Source: Streptomyces muensis (GTDB lineage Bacteria; Actinomycetota; Actinomycetes; Streptomycetales; Streptomycetaceae). From it: a stretch of 64,000 nucleotides of DNA. This document shows positions 40,666 through 45,969 of the stretch, piece by piece. The DNA is taken from the NCBI RefSeq assembly GCF_021474425.1, contig NZ_JAKEIP010000020.1, forward strand, positions 1-64,000. The letters run 5' to 3'. The position numbers and the translations under genes were made by a program. The notes under the pieces were generated by a model. That model saw only the letters and a list, made by a program, of their open reading frames with translations. It was not told the origin of the DNA and did no database searches. How positions within the stretch are numbered: position 1 is the stretch's first letter; every line of letters begins with the position of its first letter.

Positions 40666-41161
40666 CGGCCAGGTGGCCCAGGAGGATCACGGCGACCGTG
40701 GCGCCCGTGGCGCAGACGCCGATGGTGACGGCGTGCTGCGAGATCGCCATGGCGTCCGGCGGCGGGGCCACGCTGCGGCCCCGGGAGTCCAGCCACACGT
40801 CGACCGCCTCGCCGCTCCGGGTGCCCGCCGGGACGCGCGCCGTGGCCGTCCGCGCGGTGCCGTCCGGCTCCGCCCAGCGGACCGTCGTCCTCGCGGACGG
40901 CTGCCGTCCGCCGTGTGCCATGGGCAGCGTGTCGGACAGTCTGCCGACGACCTCGGCCCGGACCTGCCGGCGATCGGCGCGCTGTTCCTGGGCCGTCGCC
41001 CGGGCACTGTCATGGGCCCACCAGGCCGCGCACACCCCGACCAGGGGCGCCATCACGAGGAGCAGGACGGCCACCGCCCCTGTCGTCCACGCCTCGACGA
41101 CGTCCGACCGGCGCCGCAGTGAACTGCGCCGCCGGTGCCGGTCACCCACCAGGTATCGCAT
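40577..41161 (-). CDS. Rv1733c family membrane protein
   Basis: 194 residues, two transmembrane helices (about 24-45 and 145-168) around an extracytoplasmic loop. RRRSDVVEAWTTGAV at the first helix matches the Rv1733c family, common and multi-copy in actinomycetes and of unknown function. The ATG at 41159-41161 gives MRYLVGDRHRRRSSL; a longer frame to 41212 is possible. Its 3' end lies in the tandem duplication. Confidence 0.8.
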   Translation of the reverse strand: MRYLVGDRHRRRSSLRRRSDVVEAWTTGAVAVLLLVMAPLVGVCAAWWAHDSARATAQEQRADRRQVRAEVVGRLSDTLPMAHGGRQPSARTTVRWAEPDGTARTATARVPAGTRSGEAVDVWLDSRGRSVAPPPDAMAISQHAVTIGVCATGATVAVILLGHLAVRHTAMRHRLAEWEREWAATEPEWTRRRA

Positions 41162-41239
41162 GGCGTCCAGGTACCCCGTACACAGGACAACGTTCCTGAC
41201 GATTCCGGACAAACGCGCGGCACCGCCCCGGACCGTCGG

Positions 41240-42077
41240 TCAGCCGAAGCGCTCGATCCGGATACGGTCCACGGGCTGACCTGCCGCCACCAGCAGCCGG
41301 GAGGCGTGCTCGGCGAACCCGTTGGAGCCGCACACATAGGCCTCCCACCCACCCGGAGGCTGCTCGGCCAGGAGTGGCGCCACATATGTGGCGGCCATAC
41401 GTCCCACAGCCACACCCTCCGGCGCACTCCGTGTGAACACGGGCGTCGTCTCCGCGCCGTACTCCCGCGCGTAGATCAACTCCTCGGGGCTGCGCGCCGA
41501 CACCAGCAGTCGCAGCGGCACGTCCAGGCCCCGCGCCCTGTGGTGGCGCACCATCGACATCAGCGGTACGACACCGGAGCCGGCGCCGATCAGCAGCGCG
41601 GGCCGGTCGCCGGGCCAGGCGAAGAAGCCGCTGACCGGGCCGCGCACCTCCACCGTGTCACCGGGCTCGGCCACGGAGTGGAACCAGCCGGAGACCTCGC
41701 CGCCCTCGACATGGTCCAGGGTCAGCTCGATGTGCCCGGAGTCGTCCGGCGCGGACGCGATCGAATAGTGGCGCTGGGCCACATAGCCGTCCCGCGCGAT
41801 CAGCCGCAGCATCAGGTGCTGGCCCGGCAGATGGCCCGCCCAGTCCGGCACCGCGAGCCGGAACGTGGCGGCGTGCGGGGTCTCGCGGCGGATCTCGGTG
41901 ATCGTCGCGGTTTGCCACAGCGCGGCGACGCGGTTGCTGACGGCGATCCGCCCGGGCACGGCGAAGCGGGTCGGGGGAGTGAACGTCTCGGGCACAGCTG
42001 ACTCGGTTACGGCCGCCTCGGTCACAGCCGCCTCAGTCATGGCCTCCGCAGTCACCGTCATGTCAGTCACAGTCACC

Positions 42078-42085
<8 letters not shown>
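41240..42085 (-). CDS. Ferredoxin reductase-type flavoprotein
   Basis: 281 residues. FAD-binding beta-barrel with RHYSIAS (about 103-109), NAD-binding half starting LLIGAGSGVVPLMSM (about 163-177), and C-terminal YVCGSNGFAE. No 2Fe-2S domain is present. It likely passes electrons from NAD(P)H to its partner, the molybdopterin oxidoreductase encoded upstream with an 8-bp overlap. The N-terminal 33 residues are a low-complexity Thr/Val/Glu/Ala repeat absent from relatives. ATG at 42083-42085. Confidence 0.85.
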
Positions 42086-42683
<598 letters not shown>

Positions 42684-42813
42684 ACGGGGGATGCCTCCAG
42701 GCCGCCGTAGGCGACGGCCCGCGGGTCGAGCGTGATCAGTGTTCTGTTCATCCAACCGTACGCGCTCCGGTGACCCGCCCCGAGCCGGGTCGGTTGGGGT
42801 AGGGTTGCCGTCC

Positions 42814-42950
42814 GGTCGGGGCCGTCCCGACCGTGCTGGAGTCCAAGGAGGTGAGACCCATTACCGCTGTGTCAGGTCGGGTGCTCTCACCTCGAATCGG
42901 CGCGGATCACCGCCAGTAGGCGACCGCGAGAGCACCCTTCGGCTTCCGAA
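42814..42950 (+). promoter_or_regulatory. Structured leader, attenuator-like
   Basis: Upstream of the PrmC-like gene. Hairpin 1: arms GGTCGGG (42814-42820) and CCCGACC (42826-42832). A strong AAGGAGG (42845-42851) precedes a 19-codon frame. Hairpin 2: GGGTGCTCTC (42879-42888) pairs perfectly with GAGAGCACCC (42928-42937); its left arm lies inside the small frame. Hairpin 3: TTCGG/CCGAA at 42938-42950. The coupling of a small translated frame with an RNA stem spanning its end suggests translation-dependent attenuation. Confidence 0.5.
42860..42919 (+). CDS. Possible leader peptide with AUU start
   Basis: 19 codons from ATT (42860-42862), or 22 from GTG (42851-42853), to TAG (42917-42919). The peptide reads ITAVSGRVLSPRIGADHRQ. 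AAGGAGG ends 8 bases before ATT but overlaps the GTG, so spacing favours the unusual ATT start. It is placed so that ribosomes would disturb hairpin 2 of the leader. Speculative; there is no homologue I recognise. Confidence 0.35.
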   Translation: MTAVSGRVLSPRIGADHRQ

Positions 42951-42965
42951 AGGCTCTCGGCTTCC

Positions 42966-43808
42966 ATGCCCCCTCTCCCCTCCTCGTCTTCCTCCCCTTC
43001 ACCTTCCTCCTCGTCTTCCTCCCCCTCGCCGCTGACGCCCGACGCCGTCGTCTCCGCGCTGCGCGCCGCCGGCTGTGTCTTTGCCGAGGACGAGGCCCGG
43101 TTGATCCTGGCCGCCGCCGGCACCCCGGACGAACTCGCCGCCATGGTGGACCGGCGTGTCACCGGACTGCCCCTCGAACTCGTCCTCGGCTGGGCCGAGT
43201 TCCGCGGGCTGCGCATCGCCGTGGAACCCGGTGTCTTCGTGCCCCGCCGCCGCACCGAGTTCCTCGTCGAGCAGGCACTCGCCCATGCCCCGGACGCGTC
43301 CGTGGTCGTGGACCTGTGCTGCGGCTCGGGCGCGGTCGGTGCCGCACTGGCCGCCGCACTCGGCGGCGTCGAGCTGCACTCCGCCGACATCGACCCGGCT
43401 GCGGTGCGCTGTGCTCGCCGCAATGTGGCGCCCTTCGGCGGTCAGGTGCACGCGGGTGACCTCTTCGAGGCGCTGCCCGGCAGCCTGCGCGGCTGCGTCG
43501 GCATCCTCGCGGCGAACGTGCCATACGTACCCAGCGACGAAGTCGGGCTCCTGCCCGCTGAGGCCCGCGACCACGAGCCGCGCGTCGCCCTCGACGGCGG
43601 CGCGGACGGCCTCGACGTCCTGCGCCGGGTCGCCGCCGAGGCTCCCCGGTGGCTGGCGCCCGGCGGCTGTCTGCTGGTCGAGACGAGTGAACGCCAGGCA
43701 CCGACGGCCCTGGACGCCTTCACCCGCAGTGGACTGTCGGCGCGGCTGATCGCCTCCGAGGAGCGGTACGCGAATGTCGTCGTCGGCCTTAGTCCGGCCG
43801 GAGGCTAG
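42966..43808 (+). CDS. PrmC/HemK-like N5-glutamine methyltransferase homologue
   Basis: 280 residues. The SAM site VVDLCCGSGAVGAALAAALG (about 113-132) and ILAANVPYVPSD (about 180-191) match the HemK/PrmC group, whose catalytic motif is NPPY; here it is NVPY. It is a second, divergent copy, as prmC proper normally sits with prfA. It may modify another protein or the ribosome. Residues 5-22 are an odd Ser/Pro-only stretch. It follows the structured leader at 42814-42950. Confidence 0.8.
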   Translation: MPPLPSSSSSPSPSSSSSSPSPLTPDAVVSALRAAGCVFAEDEARLILAAAGTPDELAAMVDRRVTGLPLELVLGWAEFRGLRIAVEPGVFVPRRRTEFLVEQALAHAPDASVVVDLCCGSGAVGAALAAALGGVELHSADIDPAAVRCARRNVAPFGGQVHAGDLFEALPGSLRGCVGILAANVPYVPSDEVGLLPAEARDHEPRVALDGGADGLDVLRRVAAEAPRWLAPGGCLLVETSERQAPTALDAFTRSGLSARLIASEERYANVVVGLSPAGG

Positions 43809-43890
43809 GAGGTCACAGCGCCGCTGCTCGAAGGGCTCTCCAGGGACCGTACCGCCCTCCCCGGCCCTGCCCTCCCCGGCTCCGCCCTCA

Positions 43891-45969
43891 TCAACCGGGC
43901 ATCAGCACACGGGCGATGAGCAGTGCCACGTCGTCGGCGTTCTCGGGCCGGTGCAGGGTGCGCAGCAGGAGGTCGCAGACCTCCTCCAGCGGGCGGTCGG
44001 GGCCGTCGAGGAGTTCCAGCAGCGCGGCCAGGCGCTCGTCGAGCGGGTGCTGGCGGGTCTCGACGAGGCCGTCGGTGTAGAAGACGAGGCGGTCGCCGGG
44101 TTCGAGGTCGATCGTGGTCGTGGAGAACGGGACCCCGCCCACGCCCAGCGGCACCCCGGTGGGCAGTTCGAGGAGCTCCGGCGCGTCGCCGGGGCGGAGG
44201 CGGACGGGCGGAAGGTGTCCGGCGTTGGCGATCCGGCACTGGCGCAGCCGGGGGTCGTGGATGGCGTAGACGCAGGTGGCGATGGAGTGGTCGAGGCCCT
44301 CGGTGATCTTGTCGAGGTGCTCCAGGAGCCGTGCCGGTTCGAGGTCGAGGGAGGCCAGCGTGTGCGTCGCCGTGCGCAGCCGGCCCATGGTGGTCGCGGC
44401 GTCGATGCCGCTGCCCATCACATCGCCGACGACCAGCGCGGTCTTGCCGTCCTCCAGCGGGATCACGTCGAACCAGTCGCCGCCGACCTCGGCGCTGGCG
44501 CCCGCGGGCTGGTAGCGGGAGGCGACCTCCAGTCCGCCGGTCACCGCCGGATGGCTCGGCAGCAGGCTGCGCTGGAGGGTGAGGGCGGTGTCGCGGGCGT
44601 TCTGGTACCAGCGGGCGTTGTCGATCTGCACGGCCGCGCGGGCCGCGAGCTCACGGGCCAGCAGCAGGTCGTCCTCGCTGAACGGCAGCGGATTGCGGGT
44701 CCGCTTGAGGTCTAGGGCGCCGAGCACCTCGCCGCGCGCGATCAGCGGCACCGCCAGATAGGAGTGCACGCCCGCGCGGCCCAGCTGGACGGCGGCCTCG
44801 GGGGAGCGCGCGATGCGTGGCAGGTCCTTCTCCTCGACCTGTGTCACCATCACCGGGCTCGCGGTGCGCACGCACTCGGTGACCAGGCGGTCCGGACCGT
44901 AGCGGGCGACCTGCCCGGGCTGGTCGGCGGCGTCGAGCGCCTCCGTGTCGTGTGCCGCGCGGACGGCCAGGGCACGGATCACCGCCGACTCCGCGGGGCC
45001 CAGGCTGCTGCGTCTGCCCTCCACCACGGCTTCCAACAGATCCACGGCCGCCACGTCGGCGAGCTCCGGCACCGCGACGTCGGCCAGCTCGCGCGCCGTG
45101 CGGTCCAGCTCCAGGGTGGTGCCGATCCGGGCGGAGGCGTCGGCGATGAGCGCCAGGCGCCGCCGTGCCGTCTCGGCCTCCACGGCGGCCTGGTGCTGCT
45201 CGGTGATGTCCACGGCCATCCCGGCGACGCCGAGCACCGTGCCTGCCGTGTCCTCCAGCCGGTACAGGGAGATGGACCAGAAGTGCTCCCGGTCCGGATC
45301 GGCCGGGGTGCGGCCCGTGATGCGCTGGTTGATGAGAGGATCACCGGTCCGCAGCACCTCGCGCAGAGCCGCTTCGATGACGTCGGCGTCGACGTCGGGC
45401 AGCAGCTCACGCGGCGTACGGCCGAGATGGTCCTCGGCCGAGATGCCGTTGAGCTGCGTCAGCGCCTCGTTCACCGAGACGTACCGCAGCTCGGTGTCCA
45501 GCACGGCAAGGCCGATCGGTGCCTGCGCGATCGTCCGCGTCGACAGCGCGACGTCCCGCTCCACCTGGCGCACGGTCGACTGGTCGGCGCACAGGCCCAG
45601 CGCGTACACGTCCCCCTCGTCGTCCAGCAGCCGCATGTTGCGGAACTCCACCAGCCGCGTACTGCCGTCCTTGCGCCGGATCGGGAACGCCCCGGCCCAG
45701 CCCTCACCGGTCTCCATGACGTCGGAGAACAGTTTGACGACGAGGTCCAGGTACTGCTCGTGGACCATGATCCGGGCCGCGTACTCGCCCAGCGCCTCCT
45801 GCGCCGAGTAGCCGAACAGCTCCTCCGCCTGGGGACTCCACAGCACGATGCGCCCGTCGGTGTCCAGCACCACCGAGGCCACGCCCAGCACGTCGAGCAG
45901 CCCGCTCGGCCCCACCGGCCCGCGCACGGGCTCGTCGCCCTCGGTCACGGGAGGTTCGGCTGCAGACAT
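43891..45969 (-). CDS. PAS-GAF-SpoIIE phosphatase
   Basis: 692 residues, cytoplasmic. Two PAS domains (about 25-145 and 150-270, DTDGRIVLWSPQAEELFGYS then LDTELRYVSVNEALTQLNG), a GAF domain (about 285-445) and a C-terminal PP2C-like SpoIIE phosphatase (about 470-690) with metal residues in AEVGGDWFDVIPL and VVGDVMGSG and ENADDVALLIAR near the end. Such proteins dephosphorylate anti-anti-sigma factors in the sigma-B-like partner-switch network of Streptomyces. The ATG at 45967-45969 begins MSAAEPPVTEGDE; no anti-sigma gene lies nearby. Confidence 0.9.
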   Translation of the reverse strand: MSAAEPPVTEGDEPVRGPVGPSGLLDVLGVASVVLDTDGRIVLWSPQAEELFGYSAQEALGEYAARIMVHEQYLDLVVKLFSDVMETGEGWAGAFPIRRKDGSTRLVEFRNMRLLDDEGDVYALGLCADQSTVRQVERDVALSTRTIAQAPIGLAVLDTELRYVSVNEALTQLNGISAEDHLGRTPRELLPDVDADVIEAALREVLRTGDPLINQRITGRTPADPDREHFWSISLYRLEDTAGTVLGVAGMAVDITEQHQAAVEAETARRRLALIADASARIGTTLELDRTARELADVAVPELADVAAVDLLEAVVEGRRSSLGPAESAVIRALAVRAAHDTEALDAADQPGQVARYGPDRLVTECVRTASPVMVTQVEEKDLPRIARSPEAAVQLGRAGVHSYLAVPLIARGEVLGALDLKRTRNPLPFSEDDLLLARELAARAAVQIDNARWYQNARDTALTLQRSLLPSHPAVTGGLEVASRYQPAGASAEVGGDWFDVIPLEDGKTALVVGDVMGSGIDAATTMGRLRTATHTLASLDLEPARLLEHLDKITEGLDHSIATCVYAIHDPRLRQCRIANAGHLPPVRLRPGDAPELLELPTGVPLGVGGVPFSTTTIDLEPGDRLVFYTDGLVETRQHPLDERLAALLELLDGPDRPLEEVCDLLLRTLHRPENADDVALLIARVLMPG

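Follow-up and report, generated by a model that had tools for sequence, protein, structure and literature searches.

A small open reading frame ahead of a PrmC-related methyltransferase gene in Streptomyces muensis is part of a leader that, judged from its sequence and that of its relatives, belongs to a conserved attenuator-like family, with a non-AUG start being obligate in the methyltransferase branch. We favor, with slightly better than even confidence, the reading that this leader is a ribosome-controlled attenuator with a near-perfect Shine-Dalgarno sequence and an obligate non-canonical start codon (AUU or AUC, rarely AUA or GUY). If true, the known attenuators would gain a widespread family whose non-AUG start is conserved, and the function of the orphan PrmC-related methyltransferase would have its first clue.

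Competing helices in the leader

The window is the whole stretch of DNA analysed (64,000 nucleotides), and all features described here lie on its forward strand unless stated otherwise. An earlier note on this DNA had described a strong Shine-Dalgarno sequence, a small frame with an ATT start, and a perfect 10-bp stem ahead of the gene, all of which are confirmed in the sequence. AAGGAGG (42845-42851) lies 8 bases ahead of the ATT (42860-42862) and is part of the small frame's Shine-Dalgarno sequence, AAGGAGGTGA (42845-42854). The predicted frame (42860-42919), suggested by its conserved non-canonical start and its closure by stem 3, has 19 sense codons, ITAVSGRVLSPRIGADHRQ, followed by TAG (42917-42919). 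The stem is formed by GGGTGCTCTC (element 2, 42879-42888), the first base of which is at +20, and its complement GAGAGCACCC (element 3, 42928-42937), which starts 8 bases past the stop and is upstream of the methyltransferase ATG at 42966.

Two further helices, both absent from the earlier note, involve the same region. Element 1, GAGGTGAGA (42848-42856), lies within the small frame's Shine-Dalgarno sequence and pairs with element 2b, TCTCACCTC (42885-42893), an anti-Shine-Dalgarno copy, such that helix 1:2 masks the Shine-Dalgarno sequence of the small frame. Helix 3:4 joins GAGAGC (42928-42933) to GCTCTC (42953-42958) around GAAAGG (42948-42953), the Shine-Dalgarno sequence of the methyltransferase gene. 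Element 4 (42938-42958) consists of the hairpin TTCGG-CTT-CCGAA followed by AGGCTCTC and pairs back to element 3, enclosing the gene's Shine-Dalgarno sequence. The partner of element 3 is thus either element 2 or element 4, and 2:3 is mutually exclusive with both 1:2 and 3:4. The energy of the duplex with the 16S tail is -17.1 kcal/mol at the small frame's Shine-Dalgarno sequence versus -7.4 kcal/mol at the gene's own.

The 10-bp stem on its own is not beyond chance: counting perfect 10-bp stems whose loop spans 25-55 bases gives 9 in the 64-kb window and 3-10 in five shuffles. Since the whole leader RNA also folds only modestly better than its shuffles (z = -2.29, with 4/200 as good), the case for the leader rests on conservation. 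In an alignment of 42 of the 46 listed leaders, we observe invariant GG.GGTG in the Shine-Dalgarno sequence, CCAT at the start, GGG and one C in element 2, and CG.AAGG ahead of the gene, at its Shine-Dalgarno sequence. Across these 42 sequences, 97.1% of cells are paired in 2:3 (38-70% in slid controls), while 87.0% are paired in 1:2 and 94.0% and 90.1% in the 3:4 helices (36-57% in slid controls for this set). Both-sided changes are found in 6 cells of 2:3 (shuffle mean of 2.7) and in 15 cells of 1:2 plus 3:4 (shuffle mean of 6.1). The 2:3 helix varies little (both-sided change in 2/10 pairs; equalled by 33/500 shuffles), and 1:2 pairing persists in shifted registers, sequence by sequence. 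When folding begins at element 3, this element pairs with downstream bases in 45/45 sequences, and 3:4 encloses the gene's Shine-Dalgarno sequence in 18/26 folded methyltransferase leaders, as counted by eye. Alignment and folding point to a set of competing helices, one of which would mask expression.

Covariance models from Rfam have no match up to an E-value of 5 at positions 41000-45000 of the window, and a known riboswitch was rejected on this ground. An amino-acid attenuator of the trp or leu type is not indicated either, as ITAVSGRVLSPRIGADHRQ has no run of a single residue and no U-run follows 3:4 in the window.

The gene that follows (42966-43808) is assigned by profile match to the PrmC-related protein-glutamine N5-methyltransferases. 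It scores 422.9 bits against TIGR03704 (PrmC_rel_meth; cut-off of 248.8), which places it within this equivalog, and 176.6 bits against PrmC (TIGR03534), below the cut-off of 199.1. An NVPY motif is found in 78/80 of its relatives, where PrmC carries NPPY. Methylation of L3, as by PrmB, was considered for this enzyme but not adopted as a reading, and we know of no substrate for the PrmC relative of TIGR03704. An AlphaFold model of the single methyltransferase sequence had a mean pLDDT of 45.7 and was set aside. On the minus strand of the window, positions 41240-42755 encode a divergent pair, a small sulfite-oxidase/MsrP-like protein and a ferredoxin-reductase-like protein, both of which score below family cut-offs.

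Conservation of the frame and its start codon

The earlier note had proposed looking for loss of the frame and stem in relatives; both are kept in most of them. Relatives of the methyltransferase are present in 41/41 genomes searched, with upstream DNA for 30/41. Among these 30, the leader is found in 21, a degenerate version with ATA in one (L025), and none in 8. A gene-anchored, leader-blind sample was then made up of the best 80 of at least 521 relatives, which are close relatives and nearly all from Streptomyces, with a few from Actinomadura and others. In this sample, 71/80 loci carry the leader, with the start being ATT in 52, ATC in 17, ATA in 1, and GTT in 1, and 71/71 frames are closed within 220 bases. 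The remaining 9 loci are unscored; one of these (L323) has the leader and ATT by eye but scored 2 against a cut of 4, and six have no leader by eye within 330 bases. The other two, L308 and L315, retain leader remnants by eye, in which the frame and element 2 are gone and CGAAAGG is kept, and are natural deletion mutants.

The larger set of 114 collected methyltransferase leaders, which shares species with the gene-anchored set and is not independent owing to common ancestry and to some genomes that recur, has ATT in 87, ATC in 23, ATA in 1, GTC in 2, and GTT in 1. ATG, GTG, or TTG is the leader start in 0 of the 71 gene-anchored and 0 of the 114 collected leaders. As far as these sequences go, methyltransferase leaders always have a non-canonical start. 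The frame is closed at or before stem 3 (+6 bases) in 112/114 leaders; for the two alternative frames, the counts are 39 and 22. The stop codon is TAG in 84, TGA in 29, and TAA in 1, and is separated from stem 3 by a median of 8 bases. TAG also ends 49/51 leaders of the HYD1 class described below; TAG stops are much less frequent in Streptomyces genes than in these leader frames.

The leader extends well beyond the methyltransferase. For searches, we trained covariance models on leaders collected in this analysis, R1 on ATH starts alone and R2 on leaders of both kinds. R1 has matches in 272/295 Streptomyces genomes (E up to 0.1), and closer inspection of 38 of the matching genomes revealed extra leader copies ahead of other genes. 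R2 has matches in 225/245 genomes of the order, mostly Streptomyces, and in 111/345 genomes of the class, covering 39/126 genera, with many of these genomes again being Streptomyces. Three matches outside the class in the phylum sample were weak (E 0.0015-0.006) and were taken as chance.

Downstream genes were classed by BLAST against eight chosen reference proteins. The 224 collected instances, which are distinct over 130 bases and likewise not independent of one another, precede PrmC-related (114), HYD1 (51), ROX (20), HYD2 (13), HYD3 (11), GNAT (6), and patatin-like (3) genes, another hydrolase (1), and unclassed genes (5). The HYD1 protein resembles the solved esterase 4ao6 (E 6e-17) and has no Pfam or NCBIfam match, while HYD2 has one Pfam hydrolase match, below cut-off, and HYD3 is classed by its likeness to HYD2. 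ROX scores above the NCBIfam rifampin monooxygenase cut-off (819.2 versus 800), and rifampin monooxygenases are the best matches to it among proteins of solved structure. The GNAT class is based on PF00583, and the patatin-like class is a reading of the sequence by eye.

The sister frames encode VNAVSTWVLPSGVTVGR in HYD1, MNAVSMWVLPLPVTAGRLT in ROX and others, and INAVTGRGSLHRMA in HYD3. Their start codons differ by class: GTG in 50 and GTC in 1 for HYD1, ATG in 19 and GTG in 1 for ROX, ATC in all 11 for HYD3, ATG in 3 and GTG in 3 for GNAT, and ATG in 3 for patatin-like, with HYD2 having ATG in 8, ATT in 2, and GTG, GTT, and ATC in 1 each. The 5 unclassed instances have GTG (3), CGC (1), and GGG (1) at the start position. 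S. muensis itself has a second copy of the leader (C12:30186-30310, L115:587-711) with a GTG start and VNAVSTWVLPSGVTVGR, which precedes a 240-aa hydrolase-like gene and has a WblC-type box with 2 mismatches. In another locus (L094), the small frame has no stop, with TGG for the TAG of its sisters, and stands ahead of a 109-codon hydrolase frame, apparently a decayed gene. Two rifampin monooxygenases (L118 and L123) have, by eye, an N-terminus like the start of a HYD2 hydrolase, as if leader and gene start had moved jointly.

The conservation pattern bears on whether the frame is translated. Codon 3 of the methyltransferase frames varies mainly at its third base, and HYD1 frames that are short of one codon remain in frame, which supports translation; the frame-closure test does not discriminate in HYD1 (50, 50, and 2 of 51). 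An internal GTG at codon 4 was rejected as the real start, as it is GTG in 66/104 distinct leaders and AGA, GTA, GAA, GCA, or others in the rest. Some leaders (e.g., L011) have a 1-base deletion that alters the peptide past ITA and keeps frame closure and the helices, and stalling by peptide sequence was rejected as a general mechanism for this reason. The same altered peptides, together with the very constant bases near the start, would suit an RNA that binds a protein or ligand and whose frame is untranslated. We consider such an RNA very unlikely given the closure of the frame, the in-frame deletions, the AUG or GUG that sister leaders have in this position, and the lack of an Rfam match up to E 5.

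Ribosome position and downstream expression

In the attenuator reading that we favor, the state of the gene would depend on where a ribosome sits on the small frame. With no ribosome present, 1:2 would hide the small frame's Shine-Dalgarno sequence and 3:4 would hide or abut the gene's, leaving the gene off. Counting from the A of ATT, element 2 starts 19 bases on, and it would thus stay free when the ribosomal P site is at codon 1 or 2. A ribosome held there would cover element 1 and stop short of element 2, allowing 2:3 to form and 3:4 to break, and the gene would be on; one that is further along would cover element 2 and restore 3:4. The likely trigger would be poor initiation or a ribosome that stalls or lingers on the start codon, as happens with lincosamides, pleuromutilins, and streptogramins A. 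Two other Streptomyces leader frames, are5scL1 and tiaAL, show start-codon arrest of ribosomes in response to LSAP drugs, namely lincosamides, tiamulin, and pristinamycin IIA (PMC12421871).

The earlier note had suggested that ribosome position would decide whether the stem forms, and this is the behavior of our folding model, in which the ribosome footprint extends 15 bases ahead of the P site and pairing profiles are taken from at most 60 leaders. Over 60 methyltransferase leaders, the mean predicted probability of 2:3 is 0.15 in the free RNA, 0.63 and 0.69 with a ribosome at codons 1 and 2, 0.11 at codon 3, and at most 0.01 at codons 4-14, with a second rise at codons 15-16 (0.11 and 0.51). 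The leader in the window follows the same course, with 0.05 when free, 0.95, 0.99, and 0.28 at codons 1, 2, and 3, 0.00 at codons 4-15, and 0.99 and 0.88 at codons 16-17. The peak at the start codons in methyltransferase leaders suggests arrest or delay at the start. Among the sister classes, HYD3 rises from 0.29 when free to 0.69 and 0.67 at codons 1-2, HYD1 and HYD2 respond weakly (0.01 to about 0.3), and ROX and GNAT have hardly any 2:3 switch at equilibrium (0.00 to 0.02/0.06 in ROX).

Opening energies of the gene's start region were modelled for at most 40 methyltransferase and 20 HYD1 leaders. For methyltransferase leaders, the median is 13.8 kcal/mol when free, 11.4 at codon 1, 11.8 at codon 2, and at least 12.9 at the remaining codons. 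The sister classes have their minima near the end of the frame: HYD1 goes from 11.4 when free and 10.6 at codon 1 to 7.3 at codon 18, ROX from 15.1 and 15.5 to 6.0 at codon 19, and GNAT from 15.4 when free to about 7.5 at codon 18. For the window's leader, the model gives an access of 0.26 to the gene's Shine-Dalgarno sequence (SD2, GAAAGG) when free, with no rise at codons 1 and 2 (0.20 and 0.24), as the inner TTCGG/CCGAA hairpin is able to persist; the maximum is 0.32 at codons 16-17.

With this flat access, the output may be transcriptional. In a transcription attenuator, 3:4 would terminate transcription despite lacking a U-run and 2:3 would be the antiterminator, with the ribosome logic being that of our main reading, which it overlaps, and only the output differing. 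We regard this as a real possibility, if on the doubtful side: a 3:4-type hairpin in 45/45 sequences and the failure of modelled SD2 access to rise when 2:3 forms at codons 1-2 are what it predicts, and are5sc is cited in its support, whereas the window has no U-run past 3:4 and the gene's Shine-Dalgarno sequence lies inside 3:4 in the 18/26 leaders counted by eye.

The minima in HYD1, ROX, and GNAT also raise the question of a switch or termination sensor at the end of the frame: a ribosome that has reached the final codons or the stop would open the gene's start, and the gene would be turned on either by translation through the frame or by slow release. The steady stop-to-stem-3 distance and the TAG in 84/114 leaders are consistent with such a sensor, as is the prediction that in the window a ribosome at codons 16-17 allows 2:3 to form and SD2 access to peak. 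It is nonetheless unlikely in our view, as 29/114 leaders end in TGA and 1 in TAA, the window's leader has a modelled 2:3 probability of 0.03 and an SD2 access of 0.20 when the stop occupies the A site (ribosome at codon 19), and the median opening energy of methyltransferase leaders is lower at codon 1 than at codon 20 (11.4 versus 12.9). On the basis of these models, an end-of-frame role is conceivable above all in the HYD1, ROX, and GNAT classes.

Promoters and comparison with known systems

The two kinds of start codon are associated with different promoters. The published WblC box reads GAAAWY, 3 bp, TKGMNN, 16-19 bp, and TANNNT (PMC7157823), and we scored it allowing up to 2 mismatches outside TANNNT. 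The box is found at 69/88 canonical-start leaders versus 5/131 non-canonical-start leaders, and thus AUH leaders tend to have promoters without the box; this is partly a matter of descent, as the association follows gene families. A cruder promoter test, superseded by the published consensus, had given 57/88 and 2/131. Within HYD2, the box is present at 7/9 canonical versus 0/4 non-canonical leaders (Fisher p = 0.021); it is found at 0/3 patatin-like leaders. The window's leader has no WblC/WhiB7 box, and the methyltransferase class as a whole has 3/114. TANNNT occurs upstream of 114/114 methyltransferase leaders, at 56-65 bases before the start in 75, although single matches may be chance; in the window, a putative but probable -10 box, TAGGGT (TGGGGTAGGGT, 42800-42805), lies 60 bases upstream of the ATT. 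An AUH start would lower ribosome loading and occurs downstream of promoters without a WblC box. Where the Shine-Dalgarno sequence is strong and the start weak, ribosomes would load at a low but real rate, fitting a leader that has no inducible promoter.

The earlier note considered AUU starts to be known mainly for infC, which needs widening, as AUU and AUA starts with extended Shine-Dalgarno sequences are also described for Staphylococcus cvfC1 and ccpN (PMC13009471). The same source reports an AUA start with an extended Shine-Dalgarno sequence for S. aureus infC, and expression from non-canonical starts in Staphylococcus at about 10% of that from AUG in poor medium. That such starts serve as initiation-control points elsewhere (PMC13009471), and that the non-canonical start is fixed in methyltransferase leaders, would agree with an infC-like feedback on initiation fidelity, where the enzyme or its substrate tightens initiation and lax initiation would lead to use of the AUU frame and production of the enzyme. 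However, the AUH start is not specific to the methyltransferase because HYD3 shares it (ATC in 11/11 leaders), and AUH is also found in 3/13 HYD2 leaders. To our knowledge, there is no known link between the PrmC-related enzyme and initiation, which further counts against this feedback, and we consider it quite unlikely. Control by translation would make sense, as the earlier note had put forward, if the enzyme modifies a ribosomal protein or release factor. As the leader is also found on hydrolase-like and rifampin-monooxygenase genes, a general switch for translation stress is more likely than feedback specific to one enzyme.

A broader proposal is tentative and, in our estimate, falls somewhat short of even: the family may consist of actinomycete-wide start-codon-arrest sensors that report the state of the ribosome at codon 1-2 and do not act via a stalling peptide. 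It would come in two builds, one with a WblC-type promoter and AUG or GUG and the other WblC-free with an obligate AUH, and the PrmC-related enzyme would belong to the AUH build and serve in translation stress or in protection from antibiotics. If true, the genes of several uncharacterised hydrolase-like, GNAT, and patatin-like proteins would be grouped with that of a rifampin-inactivating enzyme as candidates for resistance, and the leader family would be a natural test bed for the purpose of non-AUG initiation in bacteria.

Among the open-access papers listed by full-text searches, no title or opening of an abstract names this leader, nor do the available parts of PMC12421871, PMC7157823, PMC13009471, and PMC8079986; the S. 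lividans attenuators listed in that part of the last paper are amino-acid and tRNA-ligase leaders. Like infC (IF3), the leader has a non-canonical start at an Ile codon, but the start belongs to the leader frame rather than to the gene itself, and AUH is common to the leaders of unrelated genes. Like cvfC1 and ccpN, it combines a conserved non-canonical start with an extended Shine-Dalgarno sequence; unlike these protein-coding genes, its start opens a leader frame, and no such leader appears in the available part of PMC13009471. The WblC/WhiB7 regulon is represented by the box in 69/88 AUG/GUG sister leaders, whereas the window's leader is without it. When compared to resistance-gene attenuators, the window's leader differs in its peptide and RNA, its non-canonical start, the lack of a U-run terminator, and the PrmC relative downstream. 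The anatomy of the erm and cat attenuators serves as a reference here, and it is with these and the vmlR, lmrC, are5sc, and tiaA attenuators that the leader shares a short leader frame, competing helices, and ribosome position as the proposed switch.
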